From Xestospongia bergquistia (taxonomy: Eukaryota > Porifera > Demospongiae > Haplosclerida > Petrosiidae): a stretch of DNA of 64,000 bases. The translations under genes were made by a program, and so were the position numbers. Under the pieces are notes generated by a model. It was not told the origin of the DNA. It ran no database searches and saw only the letters and a program-made list of their open reading frames with translations. Location of the stretch: the NCBI GenBank assembly GCA_963965975.1, contig OZ014412.1, forward strand, positions 3,908,501 through 3,972,500, written 5' to 3'. Of this stretch, positions 1-63,481 are shown piece after piece. Every line of letters begins with the position of its first letter. Position 1 is the stretch's first letter.

Positions 1-405
1 AGTCCTCTGCCTACTAATGGTAACTCATATACCACTACTAGACAGCTACTTTGTCTAACAAGTACAATAGTACATGAGACACTAACAATTGGACAATACA
101 GACTTTGTAATATTGATTTAAGAAACCAGAGTCAATCCTCTACCACCTAGTGATATAAAGATCAAACAAAGACTTGGTGTAAACAAGATAGGAAGGAAGT
201 TTTTATATTGAATCTTTCATGTAACATTTGAGCCAACTTTACCTGAACTAGATGACATTGAAGAAAACCATCAACATATCACTGGCATGTTCCAACTCTG
301 GTACAAGACTAAGAGATGTCCACATACTTAGGACATATTGTTGATGATAATAAGGCTACCATCTGTGAATGAGTCTGACCTTGCTGACCAATTATACACA
401 AGCTG
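1..405 (+). pseudogene. Relic of the 3' end of a Death-domain receptor
   Basis: Bases 1-110 match scrambled parts of the tyrosine-rich tail exon of receptor A, including a shared stretch coding TNGN and a shared stretch around VHET. Bases 235-405 match the Death-domain exon at 7274-7524: the reading LPELDDIEEN, then FQLWYKTKR, then VNESDLADQLY can be followed, but it is interrupted by a stop where A has the tryptophan of YTWDT. No splice sites or open frame join the pieces. It is a decayed copy of the same gene end, lying upstream of receptor A on the same strand; the rest of the copy may lie left of the window. Confidence 0.7.
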
Positions 406-4256: not shown

Positions 4257-7200
4257 ATGACATCTAGATTTATACTATTCATGGTATTTTCGTTCACCTC
4301 TACAGTGCTCGGTATGATTATACATATAATATCAAAGCACAAACATGTTTTTATGTGTACTAGCCCTAGCATAAAGAAGGAAATGATGAATATTTCATAA
4401 TTAAAATTAATTTGTTTATATGGTTATATGTATATAGATACATACACATAACTGTGTAGTGGTTTATTTCATTGAGATTTTTAAAGGTACAGGATTGCAA
4501 AACAATTCTGTCAAATTTATTTTCACACACACACAAATTTTGAATGAAACTATTCAACACTTTCTAGTGACGATTAGTTAAGGGAACTTTGTTGATGGAT
4601 ATGCTACCAGTTGTAAAGACCATATCATCAACTGTTGGTAAAAAAATATTAGTTGATTTATTTTTGCCTCCTGCAAATGAGAATGTATGCTTGCCAAAAA
4701 TAACCTACTATATGGTATATATTACACTACAAATTATGTTAAGAAGTTAATTATACTAAAATTTATATATTTATATCTGACATTGTGCTAAACGTTTTTA
4801 CACAGCAATTCAATTCATATTTACTCCATCTCCTAACATTGGAGTCTATCAACTAGCACATTATCAATGTTCAGTGGATTATACTAGTGTGAGTATTACT
4901 TGGTATGTTAATGGAACAGGCTCTGCTAATAATGATATTATTCAACTTGGTATTGTTACAAATGGAGATGGATCACAACAGTCTAATCTTACCATACCTG
5001 GATATCCTCAATATAACAATACAGTAGTGAGATGTAATGCTGCAGGATTTATAAATGGTAACATGAGTTATTACAACTTTAGAGAATCTACTCTGAGAAT
5101 ACAAGGTAACACACTCTCTGACATATGTTATTATATCTTCTCTCATTAGGTAAACTAGCTGCTGTCAACAACTTGATATGTCATGTACAAAGTCAGTATT
5201 TGAACTGTTCCTGGTCTCCTCCATTCTCTCTGGTATCCATACCTGGTTATGTCATCGATGTTACTTATAGAGGAGAACTAGTTATACAGAACACTACATC
5301 TTCTACAACATGGCAGTACAACTACTGTCCTAGTCAATTTGGTATATACACATATACAATTAGTGTAGCTGGTAATAACTCAGCTGGAGAAGGAGAGATA
5401 AGTAACATATCAGTTATAGTACCAGAAGGTATGTCATGTAGTTAAATTCAATCTCTCTTCACTAACTATAATAAAGATGAAATTACTTCCTACAATGTGA
5501 CTCCTAAAATGTTATCAAATGGTTCTTATTTGATCTGCTGTATTGTAGAGGTATATCATAAAATACGTTATTTCAGATTCATTTTCTCTCTTAGACTAAA
5601 TACTCTATAGAGCCATCATTAATATCTCTCAAACTAACTACCAGTAATGGAACTATATTAACATATACTGGAACAGTTACTGACATTGTTGATAATAAAT
5701 TTAAAGGGAATATAAATATTGGTACAAATGGGAGACAAAAGTTGACTGTGTATTTAAGTCTAATATATGACAAAAACAACTCTTTAATGAATAATTTATC
5801 AGTAAATATAATTTGTAAGTTAATACAATTACTTTATTTGTTATTTTATCATTCTTTTAATAGCTACATTCAATGTACAAAATGGTAGTTTAACCTCTAC
5901 TACTGGAGAAGTTTGTTTTACTTGTTATTTTCTTGAGGGTAGTCAATCACAAGGATGTTATATTAAATATAACTCACTTATAACAGACTACTACAGTGGT
6001 AATATTACTATAGTGAGAACATCAGTAGATACCAATACTGCTAGTAAATGTGCGACAGGAATATATACCAGTAACTATAACGTGACATTTTACGACATGG
6101 ATTATAACAATAATATATACATTGAGGAATATGCTTTAATACTGACTAATCAATTAGTGACTGGACTTACTCCAACTGTTAATACCTTATCACCCACCTC
6201 GTGCACATTCTGTACCAGTAGTAAGTGAATATATTATTGTTTATATAATACATAGTTATTACTACTACAGTGGCTACTGTTGAGAGTGTTAAAGAAGAAA
6301 CAATTATTATTGGTCTGTTTGTCTATAATGTACATATTATTATTGGGAGTTCTCTGTTATAGTTATAGTTGTTACAGTAGTTGTATTTATCATTGCTATT
6401 ATCATTATTGTCATTATTGGTGTAATCTTATACAGATTTAAGACAAAAAAAGGTATATGTAACATATTGATAATATTATGATTGAGTGTTATACGTATCT
6501 AGGCAAACAGATGTCATTACAAGACAATGATGATAATGAGAACTCAAAACAAAATCTTAAGGTTAATAATAAGGAGTGTTCAGGATTTTCTTATCATGTT
6601 ACTATGTGAATATATATAGTGTCAGTTGTAATATCATTGTGTTTGCAATGGTATTGTCAGCTGTTAAATTTAATGTTCACTATATGATGTAGTAAGATTG
6701 TTTTAGCAATTGTAAGTTAGTATTCCTGATGTTGTTATTAATTTTAGACTTAGTAATTATGTTGTCTAACTAATTATTATAATAGTTATTAACGCTGCAT
6801 GTTTAATCTCCCTTTACATTAGATATCAACAACTGTTCAACTTAACCAGATCAACTATACTGATGTGAACCCATTATCTATTGGTCCTATTGCTCCTCCT
6901 ACTCTCCATTCTACAGTACCTTATAGTACAGTAGTACATGAGACGCCAATAATGGAACAATATAGTTTAATACAACAATATCAGTCTTCATATTTAGTAA
7001 ATGGACCAACTAATGAGGAGTATGCCAGACTTAATCATAATGTACATGCTAGTATCCAAGTTTACGACCATACTGAACATCCTCATTCTCATACTTCAAC
7101 ACCTATGTATTCAACAGTACCTACTAATGGTAACACCACCAATCATGTATCATCACCATACAGTCAGTACTCTACTTTGTCTAATAAAACAAGTGATAAA

Positions 7201-7524
7201 TTAACTACTAAGAAGACAACAGGTCAGTAAACTTTACTATATAGTAGATAGTATTTTATATTTATTATATTAGAGTTAACTCATAAAGATCTAGTTACTT
7301 ATGTTGCTCCACATGTAACTACAAAACTACGAGAGATAGGTACTGCCCTAGCACTAACTCCACCTGAACTAGATGACATTGAAGAGAACCTTCAAGGTAT
7401 CACTGGTGTGTTCCAACTCTGGTATGAGACTAAGAGACGTCCATATACCTGGGACACATTGCTAATGATATTAAGGTCACCTGCTGTGAATGAAGCTGAA
7501 CTTGCTGACAAACTAATTCAGTGA
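4257..7524 (+). CDS. Receptor A: Ig-FN3-cysteine module-TM-tyrosine tail-Death domain, 694 aa
   Basis: Exons: 4257-4311, 4806-5105, 5150-5428, 5477-5550, 5595-5814, 5864-6220, 6363-6452, 6503-6561, 6823-7222, 7274-7524. They keep one open frame, all junctions are GT-AG, and seven of nine introns are under 150 bases. Residues 1-19 are a signal peptide. Residues 19-118 are an Ig-like domain (YQC, ITWYV, VVRC). Residues 119-211 are FN3-like, with CSWSPP recalling cytokine-receptor domains. Residues 310-428 are a module with C-x2-C, GC and GIYTSNYNV. A helix at about 430-452 is followed by basic residues. The tail (459-611) has YSTV, YSLI, YARL, YSTV and YSTL; VPYSTV and SQYSTL fit the ITIM pattern. 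Residues 612-694 match a Death domain (LALTPPELDDIEEN, YTWDTLLMIL). It probably signals through adaptors at the plasma membrane; the ligand is unknown. The 6221-6362 intron could hide one more small exon. Confidence 0.85.
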
Positions 7525-7671: not shown

Positions 7672-7677
7672 AATAAA
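7672..7677 (+). terminator. Polyadenylation signal of receptor A
   Basis: AATAAA lies about 148 bases after the stop codon of receptor A, a normal 3' UTR distance. No other copy lies between the stop codon and this one. Confidence 0.5.
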
Positions 7678-13556: not shown

Positions 13557-16111
13557 CTAAGTTGTGTGCATGTTCAAGTTTGGTGATGTCAATATCATTA
13601 ACAATGTATATGGATATCTCTTAGTCTTAGTCTTGTACTGGAGTTGGAACTCACCAGTAATACCTTGATTGTTCTCTTCAATGTAATTTAGTTCAGGTGA
13701 AGTTAGTACTAGGGCAGTACTTATCTCTTGTATTGGTTGTAACATAAACATGCAAGTTAAGTCTGCTGCTATATGCCTCATCAGATCATCTACTTTCAGA
13801 ATATAGACTGATGTTGTATTAAACTATATTTTGTTATTATTGGTGTCTTGCATATAATACTGTATAGTAATGTAAAAAGTAGTCTAAAGTAACCAACTGT
13901 TCCCAGACCAGTAATCATGACTAATGGTAACAGAGTCAGAGCCCCATCTGAATAGTTAATTTGAACAAATTTGAATATTTTATGTTTATTTAGAGATTAC
14001 ATGAAATACAAAATATTTTTAAAAAAGTATAATTACATAACATAATGAAGCCTGTAATGTTTAAAAAGAATCAGCATGATTACATAATATAATAAACAAG
14101 CCATGAACATCAACACACTGTGGCAAACTTTCTTTTCATTAAGCACAGAGACCTCCATAGTATATGTCCACTTTGCTGTTAATTTTCTCATGTGCATAGA
14201 TGACAAAATTCTGCTGTTAACCTTCTCATGTGCATAGATGACTAAGTTCCTCAAAGTACAATATTATAATGTTACTTAACATTGATAACACAATAGGTAC
14301 AGCAACAGCAACAGAAAGAACTACAAAATAAAGTTGCATAATAAAAGCACTACATTTATAAATAAACTTGCCATTAACTGATGAAACTTTGATATTATAA
14401 ACTAAAGTAATAGTATGAGTTATATAATGAAAATATTTCATATAACTTACTATGTGTAGTAGGTGATAGAGAAATAATATTAGTAGTCACTATAGTAATA
14501 ATATGAATTCTATTGTTATATTAATAATAACTTACTACTATCATAGTCTGTAAATAGTGTAGTAGGTGATGGAGATGATGATGTAACATCTGTTGATAAA
14601 GACACACTTAGTATGGAAGTTGGAACAAGAGACAGCCCAGTTATAGATTGATTAGTCATTTTTACAGCATAAGCATCCTTGTAAATGTTATTGCTGTGTT
14701 CCACATCATAAAATGTCACATTATAATTACTGGTGTATATTCCTGTCACACATTTACTAGCAGTACTGGCATCTACTGATGTTCTCACTATGGTAATATT
14801 ACCATTGAAGACAGTTCTAGTACATTTGTATTCAATATAACATCCTTGTGCTTGACTACCAACTACAAAACAGCATGTAAAACAAACTTCTCCTGTTGTA
14901 GGATTCATTACCATTAGATTGCCATCTTGAACATCAAATGTAGCTATAAATATTAGGAAGGAATTAAGTTTAACTAAATAAATAACTTACTAAAATCTTT
15001 GGGGGTTGATGTGTTGATCAAGAAACCATTATTATACTTCAGACTGAAAGAAAACTTCCATATTTTGTTGTCATGTAATTTCCCTGCGTCAACTTCTACT
15101 GTACTTTCGGAGACATTAAAGTCAGAGGTGTTAAAATTAACTTTAGAAGTATTATCATGCAAGAAGACCTGCAAATGTGATTGATGTTTTCTCAGGACAT
15201 CCTCTTTCTAAAACAAAAGAACATTATTTTAAAAATTACATTTATGATCTCAATACAACCTTTATATTAATGCCTAAGCTCCAATTACCACTGACATTCT
15301 TTGCAGTAATGTTGTACTCATGAGTATCAAGACTTTCTATTAATAAATTAGATAACTACGTACGATAAGCATCTTCATAATTCACCTGTATTCATTTCTA
15401 TTGTCAAAGAACTTGTATCTCCTTCTCCAGCTGTATTGTTACCAGCTACACTAACTGTGTAGTTACCAAATTGACTAGGACTGATGCAGAAGGTCCAGGT
15501 GGTGTCAACTGTAAAGTTTTGACTTATCTCTCCATTAGAGTCCTTAGTAAAATTAACAACATAGCCAGGTATAGGTACAAGAGAAAATGGAGGAGACCAA
15601 GTACATGTTGCACAAATATGTTGTTGTCTTTTGCATACAAGATTCCCAACATTTGCTAGTTTACCTAATAAAAAGAATAATTTAAATGTACTATCAACGA
15701 TGTGTCACCTTGTATTCTTAGAGTAGATTCACCAAAATTAAAGTAACCTTGATTATTCACAAATCCTGCAGCATTACATCTCACTACTGTATTGTTATAT
15801 TGAGGATATCCAGGTATGGTAAGACTGGAATTAGATGATCCTGCTCCATTTGTAACAATACCAAGTTGAATAATATCACTATCAGCAGACCCTTTTCCAT
15901 TAACATGCCAAGTAATACCTACATCAGTATGATCTACTGAACATTGGTAATGTGCTAGTTGATAGACTCCAATGTTAGCTTCAGGAGATGGTGTGAAGGT
16001 GAACTGCACAGCTGGTAGAGACAAAGAATGCACATTTTTCTTAATTACATGAAATTTATATCTCATACCCAAAACATTTAAATACAATAAATACACTCTC
16101 TTCCAAACCAT
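13557..16111 (-). CDS. Receptor B: Ig-FN3-cysteine module-TM-Death, decayed tail
   Basis: On the minus strand six ectodomain exons read open with the same phases as receptor A: 16111-16069 (signal peptide, MVWKRVYLLYLNVLG), 16011-15709 (Ig; YQC, ITWHV, VVRC), 15664-15386 (FN3, CTWSPP), 15336-15260, 15207-14991 (NKIWKF), 14943-14536 (cysteine module, GIYTSNYNV). A hydrophobic exon begins at 14320 (LSVAVAVPIVLSMLSNIIIL); its donor is unsettled. The tyrosine-rich tail is degraded: only a scrap matching TPII.KYSLIQ is seen near 13850. A Death-domain exon at 13789-13557 is open and ends in a stop, but lacks the three-residue WDT segment of receptor A and ends early. The ectodomain is probably functional; the signalling end may not be. 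Alternatives are a pseudogene in early decay or a receptor with reduced signalling. Confidence 0.6.
14163..14245. repeat. Short tandem duplication in the receptor B tail region
   Basis: A segment of about 40 bases containing ctcatgtgcatagatgac occurs twice in a row between the transmembrane exon and the Death-domain exon of receptor B. It supports the view that the tail of this gene has been rearranged. Confidence 0.7.
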
Positions 16112-17836: not shown

Positions 17837-18145
17837 TTACAGAGTTAAATTAGAAGTCACTGAAACACATGGTTCTAATCCAATAATAGTGATATTAGTA
17901 GATGATATTGTCCAGTCATCTGATAATCTATCCTCCTCTTCAATATCATATACATACATATTATATATACCACTAAGTAGATCATATGTACATCCAATTA
18001 CTGTACTACTACATACTGGAGAACACATCAATGATATGTTAGTACTGTAGGTAGAGGAGGTTAATGAAATAAGACAACCTTTAACAATAACTCCTCTTAT
18101 AAAATGACATGTTCTAACAATAATATTATTTAGGTCATTTTTAGA
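17837..18145 (-). pseudogene. Solo cysteine-module exon fragment
   Basis: On the minus strand the frame reads through HFIRG, GCLISLTSSTYSTNISLMC, GIYNMYVYDIEEEDRLSDDW and NITIIGLEP, matching exon 6 of receptor C (55013-55498). A deletion near its start removes one cysteine of the C-x2-C pair, and no acceptor precedes it. No Ig, FN3, transmembrane or tail exon is found within several kb on either side. It is a decayed or stranded exon copy whose central part stays almost unchanged. Confidence 0.7.
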
Positions 18146-19279
18146 GTAGTTTCAGTAAATAAACAAACCTGACCTTGACCTACAAAATTATTATATATAA
18201 AATTCTTTTTTAAAAAAATTAGCTGATACATGAGTAGTTTTTTCAATAGTAATTCCTATTAATTCTGTAATACTATGTTATGTTAATTATTAATGTACAG
18301 TACATTATACTATACATTCTTTTACATAAACCAAAAATAGATAAATTTACTAAGAAATAAGAATTATTGTAAACTTTAACATCATGTAAATGTTATCTCA
18401 CCAACCAGTCATTCTATTAACATAAGAAAATTTGTCTCATTACTAGATATGGACAAATTCTGTAAAATCTGCTGTTGATTTCTTATCTGTTATTGTTGTT
18501 ATTGTCTTACTGAACAATAAACAATAACATGTATTTGAATAGGTTTCCTATAACACAATTAAGCCATAGTACATGTTAATATAGAGTCAATAAATGTCCT
18601 ATATGACTTGAGTTATTTGACATATGTAGGGTCTCACAGGAAGTAATTAGTAGTTTAATTTTGGGGAAAGTCATCAGATCCTGTATTAAAATTTATCTAT
18701 CCTATAACATTTACTTACAATTTAGTACTTTCCATATTTATTTTCAAGTATATACAAACAAAATTTTGTTTATTGCTTCATATATGATATATCATATGTG
18801 TTGTAGAGTATCATCATTTCTCATACATAACATTTTGACTAAAACAAAGTGCAGGCTTAGCACACAACAATTTATCAACCACATAGTATATATATGTACT
18901 TATGTAATATATTACAGGATTTATGTATATGAGAGAGTTCTATGTGTAGGTTTGAATATTATAGCTTATTTGACAACATATCATCCTGATTCTTCCTGCT
19001 AACAATATCACTAAATACTATATTATTTATAATAAGACAGATAACTATGTGTGTTACATTATACAGTAAATATTACATTACTTACAGATTGTATACGTAC
19101 ATACAATATAATATAGTTAAACAGTTATCAGTTTGTATAAGTTGTGTCTCTTTAATAAAGTAATCAGTGTTTGTTGTCAAATCTCATTAGATCTACAAGA
19201 TAACACATTAGTCGAGAACAATTTCTGCTGTGTTGTCTCATTTACATAAACATATCAGTTCATAGGCTAAAGTAATGGC
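18146..19279. other. Gene-free AT-rich stretch
   Basis: Nothing supported. The 113-codon frame at 18661-19002 has no domain, a tryptophan-free composition typical of translated AT-rich DNA, and no splice context. Confidence 0.4.
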
Positions 19280-19737
19280 ATACTGATGTATGAACAAGCA
19301 ACTGAGCAGTTCTTCTTTTTTATGCTTTAGCTTATTTGGTAAAAAAAAATGTTACTATAAATTACTAACACTAATATGGACTTTTAGTACAGTGACTGAC
19401 GCATGAACAAGCAACTGAGCAGTTCTTCTTTTTTATGCTTTAGCTTATTTGGTAAAAAAGGATGTTACTATAAATTACTAACAATAATATGGACTTTTAG
19501 TACAGTGACTGACGCATGAACAAGCAACTGAGCAGTTCTTCTTTTTTATGCTTTAGCTTATTTGGTAAAAAAGGATGTTACTATAAATTACTAACAATAA
19601 TATGGACTTTTAGTACAGTGACTGACGCATGAACAAGCAACTGAGCAGTCCCTCTTTTTTATGCTTTAGCTTATTTGGTAAAAAAGGATGTTACTATAAA
19701 TTACTATCAATAATATGGACTTTTAGTACAGTGACTG
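19280..19737. repeat. Four-copy tandem repeat, 113-114 bp unit
   Basis: Copies begin near 19280, 19393, 19507 and 19620 with gactgacgcatgaacaagca (the first is diverged: tactgatgtatgaac). Copies 2 to 4 are almost identical, so the expansion is recent. There is no coding frame through the unit. Confidence 0.95.
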
Positions 19738-28049: not shown

Positions 28050-28975
28050 TATATGTATACTGGTAACATTACTGATATATCTAATATATTATCAGTGGAC
28101 ATATACTGGGTAATATTACTGATAAATCTAATATATTATCAGTGGACATATACTGGTAATATTACTGATATATCTAATATACTACCAGTGGACATATACT
28201 GGTAATATTACTGATTTATCTAATATACTACCAGTGGACATATACTGGTAATATTACTGATATATCTAATATGCTACCAGTGAACATATACTAGTAATAT
28301 TACTGATATATATAATATATTATCAGTGGACATATACTGGGTAATATTACTGATATATCTAATATACTACCAGTGGACAAATACTGGTAGTATTACTGAT
28401 ATATCTAATATACTACCAGTGGACATATACTGGGTAATATTACTGATATATCTAATATACTACCAGTGGACATATACTAGTAATATTACTGATACATCTA
28501 ATATACTACCAGTGGACATATACTAGTAATATTACTGATATATCTAATATATTATCAGTGGACATATACTGGGTAATATTACTGATATATCTAATATACT
28601 ACCAGTGGACATATACTGGTAATATTACTGATATATCTAATATACTACCAGTGGACAAATACTGGTAGTATTACTGATATATCTAATATACTACCAGTGG
28701 ACATATACTGGGTAATATTACTGATATATCTAATATACTACCAGTGGACATATACTAGTAATATTACTGATACATCTAATATACTACCAGTGGACATATA
28801 CTAGTAATATTACTGATATATCTAATATATTATCAGTGGACATATACTGGTAATATTACTGATATATCTAATATACTACCAGTGGACATATACTGGTAAT
28901 ATTACTGATATATCTAATATACTACCAGTGGACAAATACTGGTAGTATTACTGATATATATATATATATATATAT
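28050..28975 (+). repeat. 46-bp satellite array, forward orientation
   Basis: About twenty head-to-tail copies of a 46-base unit of the type tatactggtaatattactga-tatatctaatatactaccag-tggaca. Within it a variant monomer (gtggacaaatactggtag) recurs at 28373, 28651 and 28928, spacing about 277 bases, so a six-monomer higher-order repeat exists. An (AT)n run closes the array at 28955-28978. Open frames through the array are a by-product of periodicity. Confidence 0.95.
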
Positions 28976-30655: not shown

Positions 30656-32172
30656 GATAATATCAATATATGTCCACTGGTAATATATTAGGTATATTAG
30701 GTATATTAGCAATGTTACCGGTATATGTCCACTGATAATATATTAGATATATCAGTAATATTACCAGTATATGTCCACTGGTAGTATATTAGATATTTCA
30801 GTAATATTACCAGTATATGTCCACTGGTAGTATATTAGATATATCAGTAATATTACCAGTATATGTCCACTGGTAGTATATTGATATATCAGTAAATGTT
30901 ACCATTATATGTTAACTGATAGTATATTAGATATACCAGTAATAATACCAGTATATGTCCACTGGTAGTATATTAGATATATCAGTAATATTACCAGTAT
31001 ACGTCCACTGGTAGTATATCAGATATATCAGTAATATTACCAGTATATGTCCAATGGTAGTATATTGATATATCAGTAAATATTACCATTATATGTTAAC
31101 TGATAGTATATTAGATATACCAGTAATAATACCAGTATATGTCCACTGGTAGTATATTAGATATATCAGTAATATTACCAGTATATGTCCACTGGTAGTA
31201 TATTAGATATACCAGTAATATTATCAGTATATGTCCACTGGTAGTATATTAGATATATCAGTAATATTACTAGTATATGTCCACTGGTAGTATATTAGAT
31301 ATATCAGTAATATTACCATTATACGTCCACTGGTAGTATATCAGATATATCAGTAATATTACCAGTATATGTCCACTGGTAGTATATTGATATATCAGTA
31401 AATGTTACCATTATATGTTAACTGATAGTATATTAGATATACCAGTGATAATACCAGTATATGTCCACTGGTAGTATATTAGATATATCAGTAATATTAC
31501 CAGTATACATCCACTGGTAGTATATCAGATATATCAGTAATATTACCAGTATATGTCCAATGATAGTATATTGATATATCAGTAAATGTTACCATTATAT
31601 GTTAACTGATAGTATATTAGATATACCAGTAATAATACCAGTATATGTCCACTGGTAGTATATTAGATATATCAGTAATATTACCAGTATATGTCCACTG
31701 GTAGTATATTAGATATACCAGTAATATTATCAGTATATGTCCACTGGTAGTATATTAGATATATCAGTAATATTACTAGTATATGTCCACTGGTAGTATA
31801 TTAGATATATCAGTAATATTACCATTATACATCCACTGGTAGTATATCAGATATATCAGTAATATTACCAGTATATGTCCAATGGTAGTATATTGATATA
31901 TCAGTAAATGTTACCATTATATGTTAACTGATAGTATATTAGATATACCAGTAATAATACCAGTATATGTCCACTGGTAGTATATTAGATATATCAGTAA
32001 TATTACCAGTATATGTCCACTGGTAGTATATTAGATATACCAGTAATATTACCAGTATATGTCCACTGGTAGTATATTAGATATACCAGTAATATTATCA
32101 GTATATGTCCACTGGTAGTATATTAGATATATCAGTAATGTTAGCGATATATGTCCACTGGTAGTATATTGA
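30656..32172 (-). repeat. 46-bp satellite array, reverse orientation
   Basis: About thirty-two copies of the reverse complement of the array at 28050-28975 (ccactggtagtatattagat). A variant monomer with atatgttaactgatag recurs near 30907, 31091, 31412, 31597 and 31919, giving an alternating 184/321 spacing and so a higher-order unit of about 506 bases (eleven monomers). The array ends abruptly against a Death-domain relic. Confidence 0.95.
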
Positions 32173-32330
32173 TTTCTGAACCATATTTCATTGAAGAGAA
32201 CCATCAAGGTGTCATTGGTGTGTTTCAACTCTATTATGAGACTAAGAGACGTCCATATACCTGGGACACATGTTGATAATTATAAGGTTGCTAGTCATAA
32301 GCTTCCTGATAGCTAGAAGTATAATTGTTA
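32173..32330 (+). pseudogene. Death-domain exon relic next to the satellite
   Basis: The reading IEENHQGVIGVFQLYYETKR followed by RPYTWDT matches the Death-domain exon of receptor A, then runs into stops. Its 5' half was replaced by satellite. The downstream 300 bases are shared with the region after the relic at 59757-59912 (both have tgaaatgtggttttgttg-like and attaaactgtaaacacaatt segments), so both come from one duplicated gene end. Confidence 0.75.
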
Positions 32331-34099: not shown

Positions 34100-34372
34100 T
34101 GTCATTTTATAAGAGAAGCTATTGTTAAAGGTTGTCTTATTTCATTAACCTCCTCTACCTACAGTACTAACATATCATTGATGTGTTCTCCAGTATGTAG
34201 TAGTACAGTAATTGGATGTACATATAATCTACCTAGTGGTATATATAATATGTATGTATATGATATTAAAGAGGAGGATAGATTATCAGATGACTGGGTA
34301 ATATCATCTAATAATATCACTATTGCTGGATTGAAACCAACTTATACATCTGTGTATAATAACTTAAGGTAG
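34100..34372 (+). pseudogene. Solo cysteine-module exon fragment
   Basis: From a truncated start (CHF region lost its first cysteines) the frame runs KGCLISLTSSTYSTNISLMC, GIYNMYVYDIKEEDRLSDDW and NITIAGLKPT to a stop. It matches the exon of receptor C with few changes. It lacks acceptor, transmembrane and tail exons nearby and belongs to the 33.1-34.4 kb duplicated block. Confidence 0.7.
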
Positions 34373-39135: not shown

Positions 39136-39290
39136 ATAGTTAAAACTAAGTGACATTGAAGAGAACCATATCACTGGTGTGTTTTAACTATGGTATGAGA
39201 CTAAGAGACATCCATATACCTTGGACATATTGTTGATGATATTGAGGTCACCAGCTATAAATGAAACTTAAACTTGCTGACCTATTAGAG
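39136..39290 (+). pseudogene. Death-domain exon relic
   Basis: Nucleotide similarity to 7360-7524 runs from the LSDIEENH region through YETKRHPYTLDILLMILRSP to the ADLLE end, with stops and a deletion. There is no acceptor and no neighbouring tail exon. Confidence 0.7.
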
Positions 39291-40415: not shown

Positions 40416-41212
40416 ATGTCTACTCTATGTATTCAAAGTGATAAAGTGATATGTTATAATGTTAGTACCTACAGTAGTAACATATCATTGATGTGTTCTC
40501 CAGTATGTAGTAGTACAGTAATTGGATGTACATATGATCTACCTAGTGGTATATATAATATGTATGTATATGATATTGAAGAGGAGGGTATATTATCAGA
40601 TGACTGGGCAATATCACCTACTAATATCACTATTACTGGATTGGAACTAACTTCTGGAAACAATAACACTACTATATCAGTTATAGCTAGTGATGACAAT
40701 AATAGAATAATAACAGATGGAGATATAATAACTGCTTTGATAAACCTGAACTTAATGGAGAACAAAGAATGGAAGACAGAAATAAGGTTGTTTTATTCAA
40801 GTGGACTAGTTGTTGATATAACAGATCAACTCAAACTAAGTAAGATGTTATGATACTAACACAATAAACAATGTTTGTATTATGTTTTATTGTTCATTCA
40901 TTAGGTACATATGATATTACTGAAGCTACCCTATATAATGACCTAAGTAATATTGGTAGAATGTGTTACAGCTGTCATTTCATAAGAGGAGCTATTGTTA
41001 AAGGTTGTCTTATTTCATTTACCTCTTCTACCTACAGTAGTAACATATCATTGATGTGTTCTCCAGTATGTAGTAATACAGTAATTGGATGTACATATGA
41101 GCTACCTAGTGGTATATATAATATGTATGTATATGATATTGAAGAGGAGGGTAGATTATCAGATCACTGGGTAATATTGATATTATATGTACACCATTGG
41201 ACCAGTCATTAA
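40416..41212 (+). CDS. Chimeric receptor fragment: module + exon 5 spliced to a second module, 243 aa
   Basis: Exon 40416-40839 encodes a half cysteine module (ISLMCSPVCSSTVIGC, GIYNMYVYDIEEE) fused with no intron to exon-5-type sequence (TTISVIASDDNN, NKEWK, VVDITDQLKL). It ends in phase 1 at a good donor. After a 65-base intron, exon 40905-41212 begins with the acceptor and first half of the module (TYDITEATLYND, CYSC, GAIVKGCLIS), runs through GIYNMYVYDIEEEGRLSD and stops after unrelated sequence. The splice is in frame, giving module-exon5-module. No signal peptide, Ig, FN3 or membrane segment is attached. It arose by unequal exchange between copies; whether it is expressed is unknown. 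Confidence 0.45.
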
Positions 41213-47884: not shown

Positions 47885-48290
47885 CATATACATACATAAT
47901 ATGTATGTATATGATATTGAAGAGGAAGACAGATTATCAGATGAGTGGGCAATATAATCTACTAATATCACTATTACTGGATTGGAACCAACTTAATCAT
48001 CTCATGAAATGACACTACCATATTCTGTTCCCATGATCACAGTATTGATTGACAAAGGAACAAATGCTTAATAAATGTTTTATCAAATTATAGATCATAA
48101 CTGACCTTATTATCTTTTTGTTATAAAGACATACCAGTAAATAATATATTGGCTAATTAGTAATTATAGTAATGTAATAAAAATATAGGCATAGTAATAT
48201 ATAGGTAGGTGTGTCAATTCTAATGCTGGTATGTATCGTACCACAAAACTGCTGAGTGGACTAGAGAGATGAACACATATACTGCATGCA
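47885..48290 (+). pseudogene. Relic of a C-type receptor 3' end
   Basis: Bases 47895-48000 match the end of the cysteine module (MYVYDIEEEDRLSDEWAI, then a stop, then NITITGLEPT). Bases 48200-48230 match the transmembrane exon (GVSILMLVC), and 48255-48290 match the end of the tail exon. The order is right for receptor C, but the pieces are fragmentary and compressed. Confidence 0.65.
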
Positions 48291-49106
48291 GTAAATATAT
48301 TGTATTATAAATATTTTGTTATTATTATTGGATATATTAACAATATTCAAAGAGTGTAATCCTTTAAAGAAGACCTCCTAAGTTAATAAAAAAATCGTGA
48401 GAAAATCATTTTAAAAACTAATTGATCATGGCATTTAAAGCAGGAAAAACAATATTCTGAAGTTAATAGAAGAATATTTATAATGTTCTAATTTTAAAAA
48501 TCAATGACTTGCCATTTCATCCAAACACTATAAGAATCGTAGTTACAATTTGTGCAATTTCTATAAGTAGATGCTCATGTAACATAATAGTACTCTTTTT
48601 ATTATATCATAGCAAATGAATACATTCTGTTAGCTGTGAATACTTACTTGAATTGTCATTGCATGTCTTGTAGTCACTACCATAAAAATTTATATGTATA
48701 ATCAATACCATATAAGTTAATGTGTACAATCACTATCATATAAATTAATGTGTACAATCACTCCCATATAAATAAATCAACTTGTCAACTATGCAATTAT
48801 ACTAAATGACCATACAAAGTTTTTATAGCATGTATAATAGATATCCACTGTATGTATTTAAAATGATAATGTTATTTATATTATAAAATACATTGAAATA
48901 TATTTATTCAAACTTTATGAACAACTAATTATATTAGTGTAGGAGAGGTACTCATAAAATAATAATGACTATTAGATACACCTATATAGCAACAATGTTA
49001 GAGTATGCAATTCATCAAGAGATGATTCTAAAATGAACAATCAAACAATGTATGTTCCATTTCAGACAAGTATTTCATTTGAAAGCATTAAAACAAACAA
49101 AATGTA

Positions 49107-49290
49107 ACAGTATCATTGATGTGTTCTCCAGTATGTACTACTACAGTAATTGGATGTACATATGATATACCTAGTGGTATATATAATATGTATGTATATG
49201 ATATTGAAGAGGAGGGTAGATTATTAGATACCTTGGCAGTATCATCTATTAATATTACTTTTACTGGATTGGAACCAACTTGTTCCTTTC
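49107..49290 (+). pseudogene. Solo central cysteine-module cassette
   Basis: It starts at the same place as other solo copies (next to the ISLMCSP codons) and ends at the same GLEPT codons. It keeps GIYNMYVYDIEEEGRLLD open. The sequence immediately following is unrelated to any receptor exon. Confidence 0.7.
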
Positions 49291-53772: not shown

Positions 53773-53934
53773 TCACATATGAACAACATATTAAACGTAA
53801 ATGTTTCATTTTAAAATAGATATAAAAGATTCAAATTATATAAGACATACCAATAGTGTATTAATTTTGGTATTATAATAATAATGTAATGACATATACT
53901 ATTTTATTTAGTTTTATTATATAGATCTTCAGTT
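53001..53934. other. Upstream region of receptor C
   Basis: No signal-peptide exon in phase 1 was found. There is an (AT)n run at 53735-53766. If receptor C is expressed, its start must lie elsewhere. Confidence 0.4.
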
Positions 53935-54251
53935 CATATTTATTCTATCTCCTAACATTGGAAACTATCAACAAACACATTATCAATAATACCTGATGTA
54001 GGTATTATTTGGCTTGTTAATAGAACAGGTTCTACTAACAATGGCACTATTCAACTTGGTATTGTTACAAATGGAGCATAATCATCTAGCTCCAGTCTTA
54101 TTATACCTGGATATAGTCAATATAACAATACAGTAGTGAGATTTAATGCTTTTGGATTTGGTGCAATAAATGGTAGTAATTATTTTTGCTGGAGGATTTG
54201 TTGATATTAGACCCTAGAACACCTTTGATAACGCTACTCTGAGAATACAAG
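53935..54251 (+). pseudogene. Broken Ig exon of receptor C
   Basis: Acceptor and donor sites are kept, and the segments LQFIFILSPNIGNY, LGIVTNGA and YNNTVVRFN match the Ig exons of A and B. However, several stops and shifts interrupt it and the second Ig cysteine is phenylalanine. Skipping it would leave phase unchanged because it is a 1-1 exon. Confidence 0.75.
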
Positions 54252-54295
54252 GTAACACACTCTCTGATATATGTCATTATATCTCCTCTCATTAG

Positions 54296-55985
54296 ATCAA
54301 CTAGCTGCTGTCAAGAACTTAATATGTCATGTACAAAGTCAGTATATAAACTGTTCCTGGTCTCCACCCTTCTCTCTGGTATCCATATCTGGTTATGTCA
54401 TCAATGTCACTTATGGAGGAGAACTAGTTACACAGAACACTACATCTTCTACAACATGGCAGTACTGTCCCAGTCAATTTGGTATATACACAATTAGTGT
54501 TGCTGGTAATAATTCAGCTGGAGAAGGAGAGATAACTACTACATCACTACATGTACCAGGAGGTATTATCACTATGGTTACTAATGTATAATTTATTACT
54601 TTGATTTTAGTTAATATAAGTAATTTAACAACTACCTTTATCAGATCAGTTAATAGTTGGATACTAAATATAACAATATATGATTTGGTAAGTTACATTA
54701 TGATATCTCTAGATACCTCATGTTTGTGATATTAGGAACTTCTACAATGTCCACATACAGTGGAGTCAGCTCAACTAAATGTTGTTATATACAATGAAGA
54801 TAATTCTTCTATATTTCTAAATAATCCAATAATTCTAACTGATGAAGGAGTTATTGTTGTTACCATCTATATTGTAAATATAACTGAGAATAAAATATGG
54901 AAGACAAGAATGAGTTTATCATTACCAAGTGGAGTTGTTATTGATGTAACAGAATCAATTGTACTATGTAAGTACATTATAAATGACTTATAAATATTTT
55001 CTCATTCATTAGGTACATATGATATTACTGAAGCTACCCTATATAATGACCTAAGTAATATTGGTAGAACATGTTACGGCTGTTATTTTATAAGAGGAGC
55101 TATTGTTAAAGGTTGTTTTATTTCATTAACCTCCTCTACCTACAGTACTAACATATCATTGATGTGTTCTCCAGTATGTAGTAGTACAGTAATTGGATGT
55201 ACATATGATCTACCTAGTGGTATATATAATATGTATGTATATGATATTGAAGAGGAGGATAGATTATCAGACGACTGGGCAATATCATCTACTAATATCA
55301 CTATTACTGGATTGGAACCAACTTATCCATCTCTTGAAGTCATTTGTCCTGTATGTTTTGTTTCTATGGTTACAGTATTACATACTACAGAAACATGTGA
55401 CTGTAGAAGGACTATTACATTTAATATCGTTATTCTATATAATAATATAGATGATACACAAATGAGTAAAAGTAAAACAGCTGGTGGTATATTAGGAGGT
55501 AATAATAATAATGATAATTTCACTCACATTGTTAATATCAACATTAATAAATTTTAGTAGATTAGTTATTAGATGATTTTCAGATAAGATTTATTTTTTA
55601 ATAATTTATACATTCACATAATGTTATTTGTTATAATACATAATGATTTATAGATATTGTTTGTGTTTTGTTATTAGGTAGTCTAATAGGTGTGTCAGTT
55701 CTAATACTGGTATGTACTGTACTAGTACATATTGTGATATGTTGGATAAGAAGAACTAAGTCACTGAGACAAGGTAATACTAACAGTGGGAATAGTTTGT
55801 AAATGGTATTATCCATTGTAGGTACTGTACCATCTCCTATTAATCCACTAACAGATACTGTCCCTCATCAAGTTATACTTCAATATGAGAATGTTGATAT
55901 GATCACTAATACACTACCTACTACTGAACTAGAGATGAACACATGTACTGCATATGGTGTGATATATTATGTCAATGGAAATTAA
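54296..55985 (+). CDS. Receptor C: FN3-cysteine module-TM-short YxN tail
   Basis: Exons 54296-54562 (FN3; CSWSPP, TISVAGNNSAGEGEI), 54611-54687, 54736-54967 (NKIWK), 55013-55498 (module CYGC, GCFIS, ISLMCSPVCSSTVIGC, GIYNMYVYDIEEED, then a cysteine-containing stalk), 55678-55773 (GVSLILVCTVLVHIVIC-type transmembrane helix followed by IRRTKSLRQ) and 55822-55985 (tail). All junctions are GT-AG and in frame, and most introns are 44-48 bases. The tail holds QYENV and YYVNGN: YEN and YVN fit the Grb2-SH2 consensus YxN. There is no Death domain. Exon phases match receptor A, so the two genes share an ectodomain but carry different tails. The preceding Ig exon is broken and no signal exon is seen, so the gene is probably a pseudogene or uses another start; an ATG at 54271 could open directly into the FN3 exon. 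Confidence 0.65.
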
Positions 55986-55989
55986 TACT

Positions 55990-57855
55990 GTGTTGCGACT
56001 GGATTTTTATAAAACACATAAATATCATTCAATGACCTCTTTGTAGTGATAATATACTTATATGTCAAATTAAATCCATTGTGTTTGTGTGGTAGCTATT
56101 TAAATAATATTATCTTTTAAAGACACAGACAACATATAGTTGTTAACTGGAGTAGAAGCACAGCAACAAATTAATTGTGCATAGCACAATTAATTTTATT
56201 AAGATACATTTTTAATCATTGATAATATTATTATGTTGTGTGAGAGTATTCTGTGAATACTCATTTGTTATTTTAACAATTTTATTTTCTTATAGCTTAA
56301 CAAAACTGATTGATTAATTTTGACACATTTTAAAATTATGAATACAAATTAATTAATAAAATTACTTGATAATGTATTATGTATGTACATTGTACAATAT
56401 AATTAATCTGATATGATCAGATAATGAAAGCTGTACTTTTAAGACCATACTCTAATCTGGTAAATGGGAAAAAAGCTTACTTAGAAGTCTATTAAACTTT
56501 TATGTTCCAGGCTATGGCAACAGAACTTTGATTAAAAATTTCTAAATTGTGCAATTCTGCTATCTATACTTAATGAGAGTAAGCAAAAATATGTCCATGG
56601 TTATGTTTTAATCAAATATAACAACAACAGTTCACACCTTTATCAAACTCGAATAAAATTTTGACTTCGTTGCTCAAAATGCCACATATATGAAGGAATA
56701 TGAGAAATGATTATACTCAACACTACACATTTCACAACTACTTGATAATAAATGATTTATATCTAGTTCCAACTTTATCAACATTAAAATCATCATTATT
56801 TCTTGTATTACTATATACATATCCTACAATATATTTTGTTAACAATCAAGTGGTATCTATTAAATACAAGTAAATTAAATTCATTCATTATAGAGAATCA
56901 GGTCAGCATTTATCAATCTTCCTATATATTTTGAGTGATTTAAACCAAACAGGATACATACTGAAGAATTCTTTAATCAGTAAAACATTTAATTTAATTA
57001 TATATACACATATAAGGTCTAATTATATTATAGTAAAACAATTAATGTAACTATACATCATTAATAATTACTAATTCAACAACAACAACAATGTAGTTTA
57101 ATAATAACCTATCAGGAAGAACTAAATAATCAAATTGTCCAAAATTTATATTAGTATACTATTAATACTTATGTTAACATATAGTCAAATGGTCATTATA
57201 CATAGTGTACTAGTTGATGAGAAAGTATTTACAAGATATCAAAGTGTATAGTAACTGTTATCTCATCAATCACATGTACTTATAACAAGTTTATACTTCA
57301 TAGTACTACAATCTTTGTTAATATAATATTTATTATAATTATTATTTTAACAACATCATTATTATAACATAGTACTATGGGATCTACCCATCCATAAAGG
57401 AAATCATAGTTACTTGAATAAAGTTACTCATATATAAAAGTTAGAACAAATATTACAATAACTACACATCCATATTATCACAGTGAAGGCAATTAAACTT
57501 GAAATGAGGGAAAAACCTTAGCTAAGGTATACCATACTTAGATATTTGTACTGGAACAAACATCCTGGATAAGATCTTGTAGATTTTTTTTTGATCACTT
57601 ACTAAAGCAACATTGGGCACATGTGGTATAATCAGAGTCACACAATTTCTCTTGACATTTGCTAGCTTTACTACATATTCACATTCAAGTTTGACAGATA
57701 TTTCATTTTAGCTTTAAAAATCAGTATATTGGAGAACCAGTGGATATATTAATATCTGACATATAAATTTTGAATTATCTCATCAATGAGTGCTTTAGTT
57801 ATACTACTAATAAAATGTAACAATATTGTTTAGTTCATTAATTATATATAATTAG
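55990..57855. other. Gene-free AT-rich stretch
   Basis: Downstream of receptor C no exon is supported. A small hairpin (taattgtgcatagcacaatta) lies near 56173. The next receptor piece starts at 57856. Confidence 0.4.
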
Positions 57856-58013
57856 GTACATATGATATTACTGAAGCTACTCTATATAATGACCTAAGTA
57901 ATATTGGTAGAACATGTTACAGCTGTCATTTTATAAGAGGAGCTATTGTTAAAGGTTGTCTTATTTCATTAACCTCCTCTACTTACAATACTAATATATC
58001 ATTGATGTGTTCT
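57856..58013 (+). pseudogene. 5' half of a cysteine-module exon
   Basis: A correct acceptor (attag) is followed by TYDITEATLYNDLSNIGR, CYSC, GAIVKGCLIS and NISLMCS. Homology stops abruptly near 58013, just before the part that the solo cassettes keep. The sequence after it includes tctcattagatcaactcgtg, a match to the acceptor of the FN3 exon, suggesting a recombination junction. Confidence 0.7.
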
Positions 58014-59756: not shown

Positions 59757-59912
59757 GTTTGAACTAGATGACATTATAGACAACCATAAAGGTATCATTG
59801 GTGTGTTTTAACTCTGGTATGAGACTAAGAGATGTACACATACTTGTATCACATTGTTAATGATATTGATATTACCAACTATAAGTGAGCCTGAATTTCC
59901 TGACTAACTAGA
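59757..59912 (+). pseudogene. Death-domain exon relic
   Basis: Nucleotide similarity to 7360-7524 is continuous from ELDDI to the SEPEF region, with stops. It is followed by a flank shared with 32331-32600. Confidence 0.75.
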
Positions 59913-62900: not shown

Positions 62901-63194
62901 TCAAAACTTTCAAGTGCCAATCAGTATACTATTAATATGAAACAGTATAGTCTTTAATACTTCTCTGTGTCTAATCCTATACTATATACAATGAGAATGG
63001 CAATGATTAGCTTAAAATCAACCAATGTAGTTTTTCAATGAATTATTTCTACTATAAACAAATAGTGAATATGTTTTGGTACTTAAATGGAATATGAATA
63101 ATTGATTTGTTTCCTTTGATGGCTGTACAAGTTGTTTGTAAACAAGAAATGAATATGTCTTAGTATGAAATAGTAATAAGTAAGTAACTCTATA
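62901..63194. other. Short gene-free stretch
   Basis: Bases 63050-63190 are related to the tandem repeat at 36268-36490. Nothing else is supported. Confidence 0.45.
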
Positions 63195-63481
63195 TAACCT
63201 CCTCTACCTACAGTAGTAACATATCATTGATGTGTTCTCCAGTATGTAATAGTACAGTAATTGGATGTACATATGATATACCTAGTGGTATATATAATAT
63301 GTATGTATATGATATTGAAGAGGAGGATACATTATCAGATGACTGGGCAATATCATATACTAATATCACTATTACTGGATTGAAACCAACTTACTCATAT
63401 CCTTGTCAAGTTATAAATTCTATATCGAGCCCTGTTACTATAGTTACAGTATCAGTTGTTATACAGAAATATGTGCATTAG
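63195..63481 (+). pseudogene. Solo central cysteine-module cassette
   Basis: It begins at the pyrimidine-rich cctctacctacag boundary and stays open through ISLMCSPVCNSTVIGC, GIYNMYVYDIEEED and NITITGLKPT into a different stalk with a stop at 63481. The first half of the module is absent. About 150 bases on is a scrap of the C-type tail exon. Confidence 0.7.

Follow-up and report, generated by a model that had tools for sequence, protein, structure and literature searches.

The question raised by this sponge locus is whether immune-type tyrosine motifs and a Death domain, more often described on separate receptors, are carried by one and the same chain. If both are present on one receptor, it would represent a concrete candidate for the means by which an early-branching animal couples surface recognition to the triggering or restraint of cell death. 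As suggested by our analysis of the window (the whole 64-kb stretch of DNA), ITIM-like tyrosines and a likely Death domain appear to share the inside part of one predicted surface receptor.

Gene structure and splicing

The gene was rebuilt from the sequence at positions 4257-7524 of the plus strand, where ten exons and nine GT-AG introns give a single stop-free frame of 678 residues. The encoded protein consists, in this order, of a signal peptide, an Ig part, an FN3 part, a two-exon cysteine module, a transmembrane (TM) helix, a tail of 159 residues and a Death-like last exon. The following features were assigned to the gene:

4257-4311, plus strand: exon 1, signal peptide MTSRFILFMVFSFTSTVL (hydropathy 2.14, window at residue 5)
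4806-5105, plus strand: exon 2, Ig-like domain with Cys40, Trp51 and Cys95 (Pfam Ig_3, sub-cut-off)
5150-5428, plus strand: exon 3, FN3-like domain (Pfam fn3, E 0.036, sub-cut-off)
5611-5814, plus strand: exon 4, first half of the two-exon ectodomain module (open frame, GT-AG)
5864-6220, plus strand: exon 5, cysteine module (aligned with nine further copies or part-copies)
6271-6312, plus strand: exon 6, juxtamembrane (open frame, GT-AG model)
6363-6452, plus strand: exon 7, transmembrane helix and RFKTKKG (hydropathy 3.9, window at residue 410)
6503-6561, plus strand: exon 8, start of the cytoplasmic tail (GT-AG model)
6823-7222, plus strand: exon 9, tyrosine tail (YTDV, YSTV, YSLI, YARL, YSTV, YSTL)
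7274-7524, plus strand: exon 10, Death-like domain and stop (Pfam PF00531, sub-threshold, exon scanned alone)
7672-7677, plus strand: polyadenylation signal AATAAA, 148 nt beyond the stop

The unbroken joining of ten exons and the junctions 5814/5864, 6452/6503 and 7222/7274, put forward in a preliminary description of the locus, were all recovered in the rebuilt model. The sites VPYSTV and SQYSTL and the further YxxL/I sites reported there are likewise present, the tail having six YxxI/L/V sites; the reported length of 694 residues was not reproduced.

Introns 1 to 9 measure, in order, 494, 44, 182, 49, 50, 50, 50, 261 and 51 nt, six of the nine being 44-51 nt in size, and intron 1 begins with the donor GTATGA after exon 1. 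Introns 1-7 and 9 are in phase 1 and intron 8 is in phase 0; thus, exons 2-7 form symmetric 1-1 units, which are a common form among shuffled ectodomain exons. The GC content was 28%, which together with the short introns and the types of domain points to a probable demosponge. The six frames of the locus contained four stop-to-stop stretches of at least 100 codons and two of at least 130 codons, as compared with means of 0.12 and 0.012, respectively, for the shuffled locus (500 Markov shuffles). An open frame arising by chance is ruled out by these open-stretch shuffles together with the order of parts in a paralog on the opposite strand:

13572-16012, minus strand: paralog with Ig, FN3, exon-4-like, module, tail remnant and Death exon, in the same part order

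The structure of the receptor gene, including its tyrosine tail, is real at the sequence level.

Ectodomain and membrane segment

The match of exon 2 to Pfam Ig_3 (E 0.017, 16 bits) remained below the cut-off of 30, and the Cys-Trp-Cys spacing of this exon, judged by eye, fits the Ig pattern. Exon 2 shares 82% identity with the paralog exon at 15707-16012 (minus strand), and the Ig exon of the minus-strand paralog matched Pfam ig, also below cut-off (E 0.11). The fn3 bit scores were 14.7 for exon 3 and 21.5 and 21.9 for two paralog exons (E 2.8e-4 and 2.1e-4), all of them under the cut-off of 25; in the paralog exon with the fn3 E-value of 2.1e-4, Ig_J scores better (E 6.5e-5). The Ig-FN3 ectodomain described earlier is retained as Ig-like and FN3-like exons, but both lie under the Pfam cut-off in the intact copy, where every match to Ig, FN3 and Death falls below the curated threshold.

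Exons 4 and 5, which together form the cysteine module, gave no credible Pfam match, and the AlphaFold model of exon 5 (pLDDT 33.6) did not represent the module usefully. Segments resembling exon 4, recognized by eye, are located upstream of module copies at 15007-15147 (minus strand) and 54784-54951, and after a module copy at 40653-40823. None of these three was listed by tblastn with exon 4 alone at E 1; tblastn with the whole protein included the segment at 54784.

Copies or part-copies of the cysteine module, nine in all, were found at 17870-18158 (minus strand), 34100-34354, 40464-40652, 40895-41185, 47892-48008, 49101-49281, 55000-55356, 57852-58013 and 63194-63394. They display 84-97% DNA identity among the listed pairs, and most of the matches do not exceed the exon in length. 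The interval 40464-41185 contains, one after another, a part-copy of the module, a segment resembling exon 4 and a further copy of the module; a related gene may therefore carry several modules.

Besides the signal peptide, the protein possesses one TM region, with hydropathy windows starting at residues 402-423 and basic residues after it, and its ectodomain contains 14 N-glycosylation sequons. No paralog copy of exon 1 was found within the 64-kb window. The top matches of the whole-protein Pfam scan, DUF6773 (1.8e-5), ECSCR (8.9e-4) and others, all sub-cut-off, lie on the hydrophobic TM stretch and were set aside because of its composition.

Tyrosine motifs of the cytoplasmic tail

Ten tyrosines are present in the tail, six of which belong to YxxI/L/V motifs, as compared with a shuffle mean of 1.67 (p-value 0.0016; 0.155% of 20,000 tail shuffles reach six). 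Three sites, INYTDV, VPYSTV and SQYSTL, are ITIM-like versus 0.70 expected from tail shuffles (p-value 0.024), under a counting rule which allows S, I, V, L or T at position -2 and by which INYTDV is included. The protein combines one TM segment with an ITIM-like cytoplasmic tail (VPYSTV, SQYSTL), as expected of IgSF receptors of the ITIM type.

The same tyrosines could belong to a Death receptor in which they serve mainly for clathrin sorting (YxxPhi), so that the Death domain would signal and the tail would set the surface level. All six tail sites fit YxxPhi equally well as the ITIM/ITAM core, and an ITAM-like spacing is found in a single pair only, YSTV and YSLI. For the YDTL motif of Fas, both sorting and phosphorylation are described, and endocytosis is primed by Y291 (PMC4778973). 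A mainly sorting role is opposed, however, by the excess of sites with an ITIM-type residue at -2, given above, and by the motifs LQYENV and TAYGVI, which are located beyond the TM-like segment of a relative in the window:

53927-55982, plus strand: relative with a broken Ig exon and FN3, exon-4-like and module exons (sequence matches)

In this relative, the TM-like segment (55647-55766) is followed by a short stretch with the two motifs (55875-55982) before a stop, and the nearest downstream Death exon is located at 59761. As far as its sequence indicates, the relative may be an ITIM-tail receptor that does not include a Death domain. A tail devoted mainly to sorting is regarded as rather unlikely, and phosphotyrosine gating of a Death receptor is preferred.

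The Death-like last exon

Scanned alone, exon 10 matched PF00531 with an E-value of 0.18 and 12.4 bits (cut-off 22.6), residues 12-69 being aligned with positions 8-72 of the 86 in the profile, and Death was the only Pfam family that the exon matched (24,736 models). Since Death had been named in advance in the preliminary description, the expectation for this single family is about 7e-6 (0.18/24,736). The E-value of 0.18 on its own is weak, because one of the ten scrambled or reversed controls (nine shuffles of exon 10 and the reversed exon), a shuffle, matched a different family at E 0.11; none of the ten controls matched Death.

The alignment of exon 10 with FADD scored above all 500 of 500 shuffles. 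For UNC5B, MyD88 and p100, 461, 498 and 130 of 500 shuffles, respectively, scored at least as high as the real exon, and 114 of 2000 shuffles were as high or higher against a thin profile of four solved Death domains. Comparison of exon 10 with a Death profile by hhalign resulted in E 0.2 across 14 columns. Death was missing from the whole-protein Pfam matches at E 1 or better, and seven pieces from the five other copies of the exon gave no Pfam Death match, the intact exon being the only one of eight rows that did. The PDB sequence search returned no match with exon 10 and one unrelated match (E 1.1) with the profile. AlphaFold, supplied with an alignment of the eight window pieces, produced four helices for exon 10 (pLDDT 64.5, pTM 0.39), and Foldseek with this model returned ten matches, the best at E 3.9, giving no fold support.

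Among the checks proposed earlier, the Pfam scan found Ig_3, fn3 and Death, each below cut-off and Death from the exon alone only, and the structure prediction, with its low-confidence model, was uninformative as to a Death fold. The C-terminal Death domain of the preliminary description is supported in part, by the sub-threshold Pfam match and by FADD, but not by the whole-protein scan or by three of the four solved domains.

If the last exon instead encoded a helical domain of another fold, the protein would be an IgSF tyrosine-tail receptor with some other C-terminal domain. Such an assignment would agree with a match obtained below threshold from the exon alone and not from the whole protein, with other exon copies that do not match Death, and with the weak AlphaFold model, the missing fold match and the negative profile tests; yet Death is the exon's only family match and spans most of the profile, the scrambled controls do not match it, and the alignment with FADD is positive. 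We consider a non-Death domain improbable, and the last exon is probably a Death domain.

Relatives in the window and selection

The intact gene has no other whole copy in the 64-kb window, its relatives there being partial or broken. Six copies of the Death exon are present; of the other five, a stop interrupts three, a fourth is reduced to a fragment, and the fifth (13.6 kb, minus strand, within the paralog given above) has stayed open but is shorter and diverged. The remaining four are:

236-394, plus strand: Death-exon copy with one stop, at the left window edge
32190-32270, plus strand: Death-exon fragment (taken as 32175-32273 where it adjoins the second 46-bp satellite array)
39143-39265, plus strand: Death-exon fragment with stop (sequence match)
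59761-59904, plus strand: Death-exon fragment with stop (sequence match)

The 46-bp satellite forms two arrays of opposite sense, at 28056-28968 and 30692-32170, and a 113-bp tandem repeat at 19282-19737 comprises four copies with 97% matches.

No stop interrupts the Ig, FN3 and module exons of the minus-strand paralog, and the region beyond the module is decayed. The acceptor and donor of its Ig exon are kept, as are the acceptors of its FN3 and module exons. Its tail remnant, a DNA match of 6927-7034 to 13864-13757 (E 1.7e-10), is located directly before the Death exon, which indicates that the pairing of tail and Death exon was inherited. Upstream of the Death copy at 236-394, a tail remnant at 61-105 gave a weak match (E 0.58).

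These arrangements bear on a possible fusion in the gene model, in which a receptor gene (exons 1-7) and a distinct tail-Death gene would have been read as one. Intron 8, with 261 nt longer than the adjacent introns and beginning with the donor GTTAAT, would be in line with such a boundary, but in the minus-strand paralog the ectodomain exons, a tail remnant and the Death exon follow one another on one strand in the order of the intact gene, and a fusion is therefore very improbable.

The Ig, FN3 and module exons compared with those of the minus-strand paralog gave a dN/dS of 0.39 (95% 0.28-0.52; 299 codons), and none of 1000 bootstraps was at or above 1. In this pairwise comparison the ectodomain exons appear to be under purifying selection, a low pairwise dN/dS being unable to tell which of two copies was constrained. 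For the Death exon and the left-edge copy, dN/dS amounted to 0.34 (95% 0.12-1.07; 51 codons), with 33 of 1000 bootstraps at or above 1. The ten single pairs gave values of 0.31, 0.34, 0.35, 0.36, 0.42, 0.52, 0.76, 0.77, 0.87 and 1.57.

The condition of the other Death copies, and the four of ten pairs at 0.76-1.57, would be expected of a recently silenced copy, open yet unexpressed, within a decaying cluster. Against such silencing, which we judge unlikely, stand ten open exons with GT-AG borders, the poly(A) signal and the dN/dS of the ectodomain.

Eight further open frames in the window gave no Pfam match above cut-off, and neither Rfam (gathering thresholds) nor a tRNA scan found anything in the 64 kb. 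No relatives were found in collections of viral, bacterial and archaeal contigs, a result that has no bearing on animal orthologs.

Proposed function

The preferred explanation, to which we assign about an even chance, is that the gene belongs to a family of single-pass IgSF receptors that is mostly decayed and has, in the window, this one whole member, and that it encodes a phosphotyrosine-gated Death receptor. The ectodomain would bind a microbial, self or neighbour-cell ligand, and clustering of the receptor by this ligand would lead Src-family kinases to phosphorylate the tail, on which SH2 proteins of the SHP, Csk or Grb2 type could dock. The Death domain might recruit a Death-domain adaptor of the MyD88, FADD or CRADD type. 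The tail tyrosines would decide if the Death platform signals at all and from what compartment it does so, as in Fas, which is the nearest published mechanism for the proposed tyrosine-set Death signalling.

On a broader and more speculative reading, regarded as a minor possibility, the gene would belong to an IgSF family of allorecognition or microbe sensing, in which tyrosine switches and Death on one chain wire recognition to cell death, beside Death-less tyrosine-tail relatives, in the manner of paired receptors.

Comparison with known receptor systems

The ectodomain of Fas is of the TNFR type, and no TNFR family was found in the receptor at E 1 in the whole-protein Pfam scan. Fas Y232 and Y291 (YDTL) are described as being controlled by Src-family kinases and SHP-1, with death or survival as the outcome (PMC4778973). 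Death-domain output set by tyrosine phosphorylation would be the feature in common, being a proposal in the case of the receptor reported here, whereas the Fas tyrosines are situated inside the Death domain (PMC4778973) and those of our receptor in a separate tail.

UNC5, whose Ig ectodomain is paired with a Death domain, resembles the receptor in these parts and in its one TM segment (PMC5372507). According to a title in the reference list of the same article, UNC5 is tyrosine phosphorylated and binds Shp2 (PMC5372507). It differs by its TSP repeats and ZU5 domain (PMC5372507), and neither TSP families nor ZU5 were found in the receptor at E 1 in the whole-protein scan.

The coupling of phosphotyrosine and Death signalling in one receptor had been presented as new. 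The exact combination of Ig, FN3, tyrosine motifs and Death was not met in the open-licence literature, which cannot show absence from print, but the claim of novelty for the coupling as such was too strong, since Fas and, by the cited title, UNC5 already combine both.

Among sponges, a gene of Dysidea avara with Ig domains and a CARD, upregulated 1 h into exposure to microbial signals, likewise joins Ig to a death-fold domain (PMC6208332). In this gene and in the sponge Ig-TIR proteins, CARD or TIR replaces Death, and tyrosine motifs are not described for them in the accessible text of that source (PMC6208332); no TIR was found in our receptor at E 1 in the whole-protein Pfam scan. Animal death signalling runs on Death-domain platforms, and Amphimedon is reported to encode 357 TRADD-N proteins, with Death-like domains placed N-terminally in most architectural types (PMC8195603).

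FcoR of Botryllus and Alr of Hydractinia are IgSF receptors of allorecognition loci with ITIM, hemITAM or core YxxI/L/V motifs, and thereby resemble the receptor as IgSF receptors of non-vertebrate animals equipped with tyrosine motifs (PMC12065747). The FcoRs differ in having sushi and several Ig domains; in the accessible text of PMC12065747, the phrase 'death domain' is absent, and FN3 and the cysteine module of our receptor are not mentioned for Alr or FcoR. Sponges, cnidarians and ascidians do not share conserved candidate allorecognition proteins, whereas signalling through tyrosine motifs is common to the cnidarian and ascidian candidates (PMC12065747). Judged from its sequence, the receptor described here is predicted to be of the Alr/FcoR-like IgSF tyrosine-tail type, ending in a Death domain.
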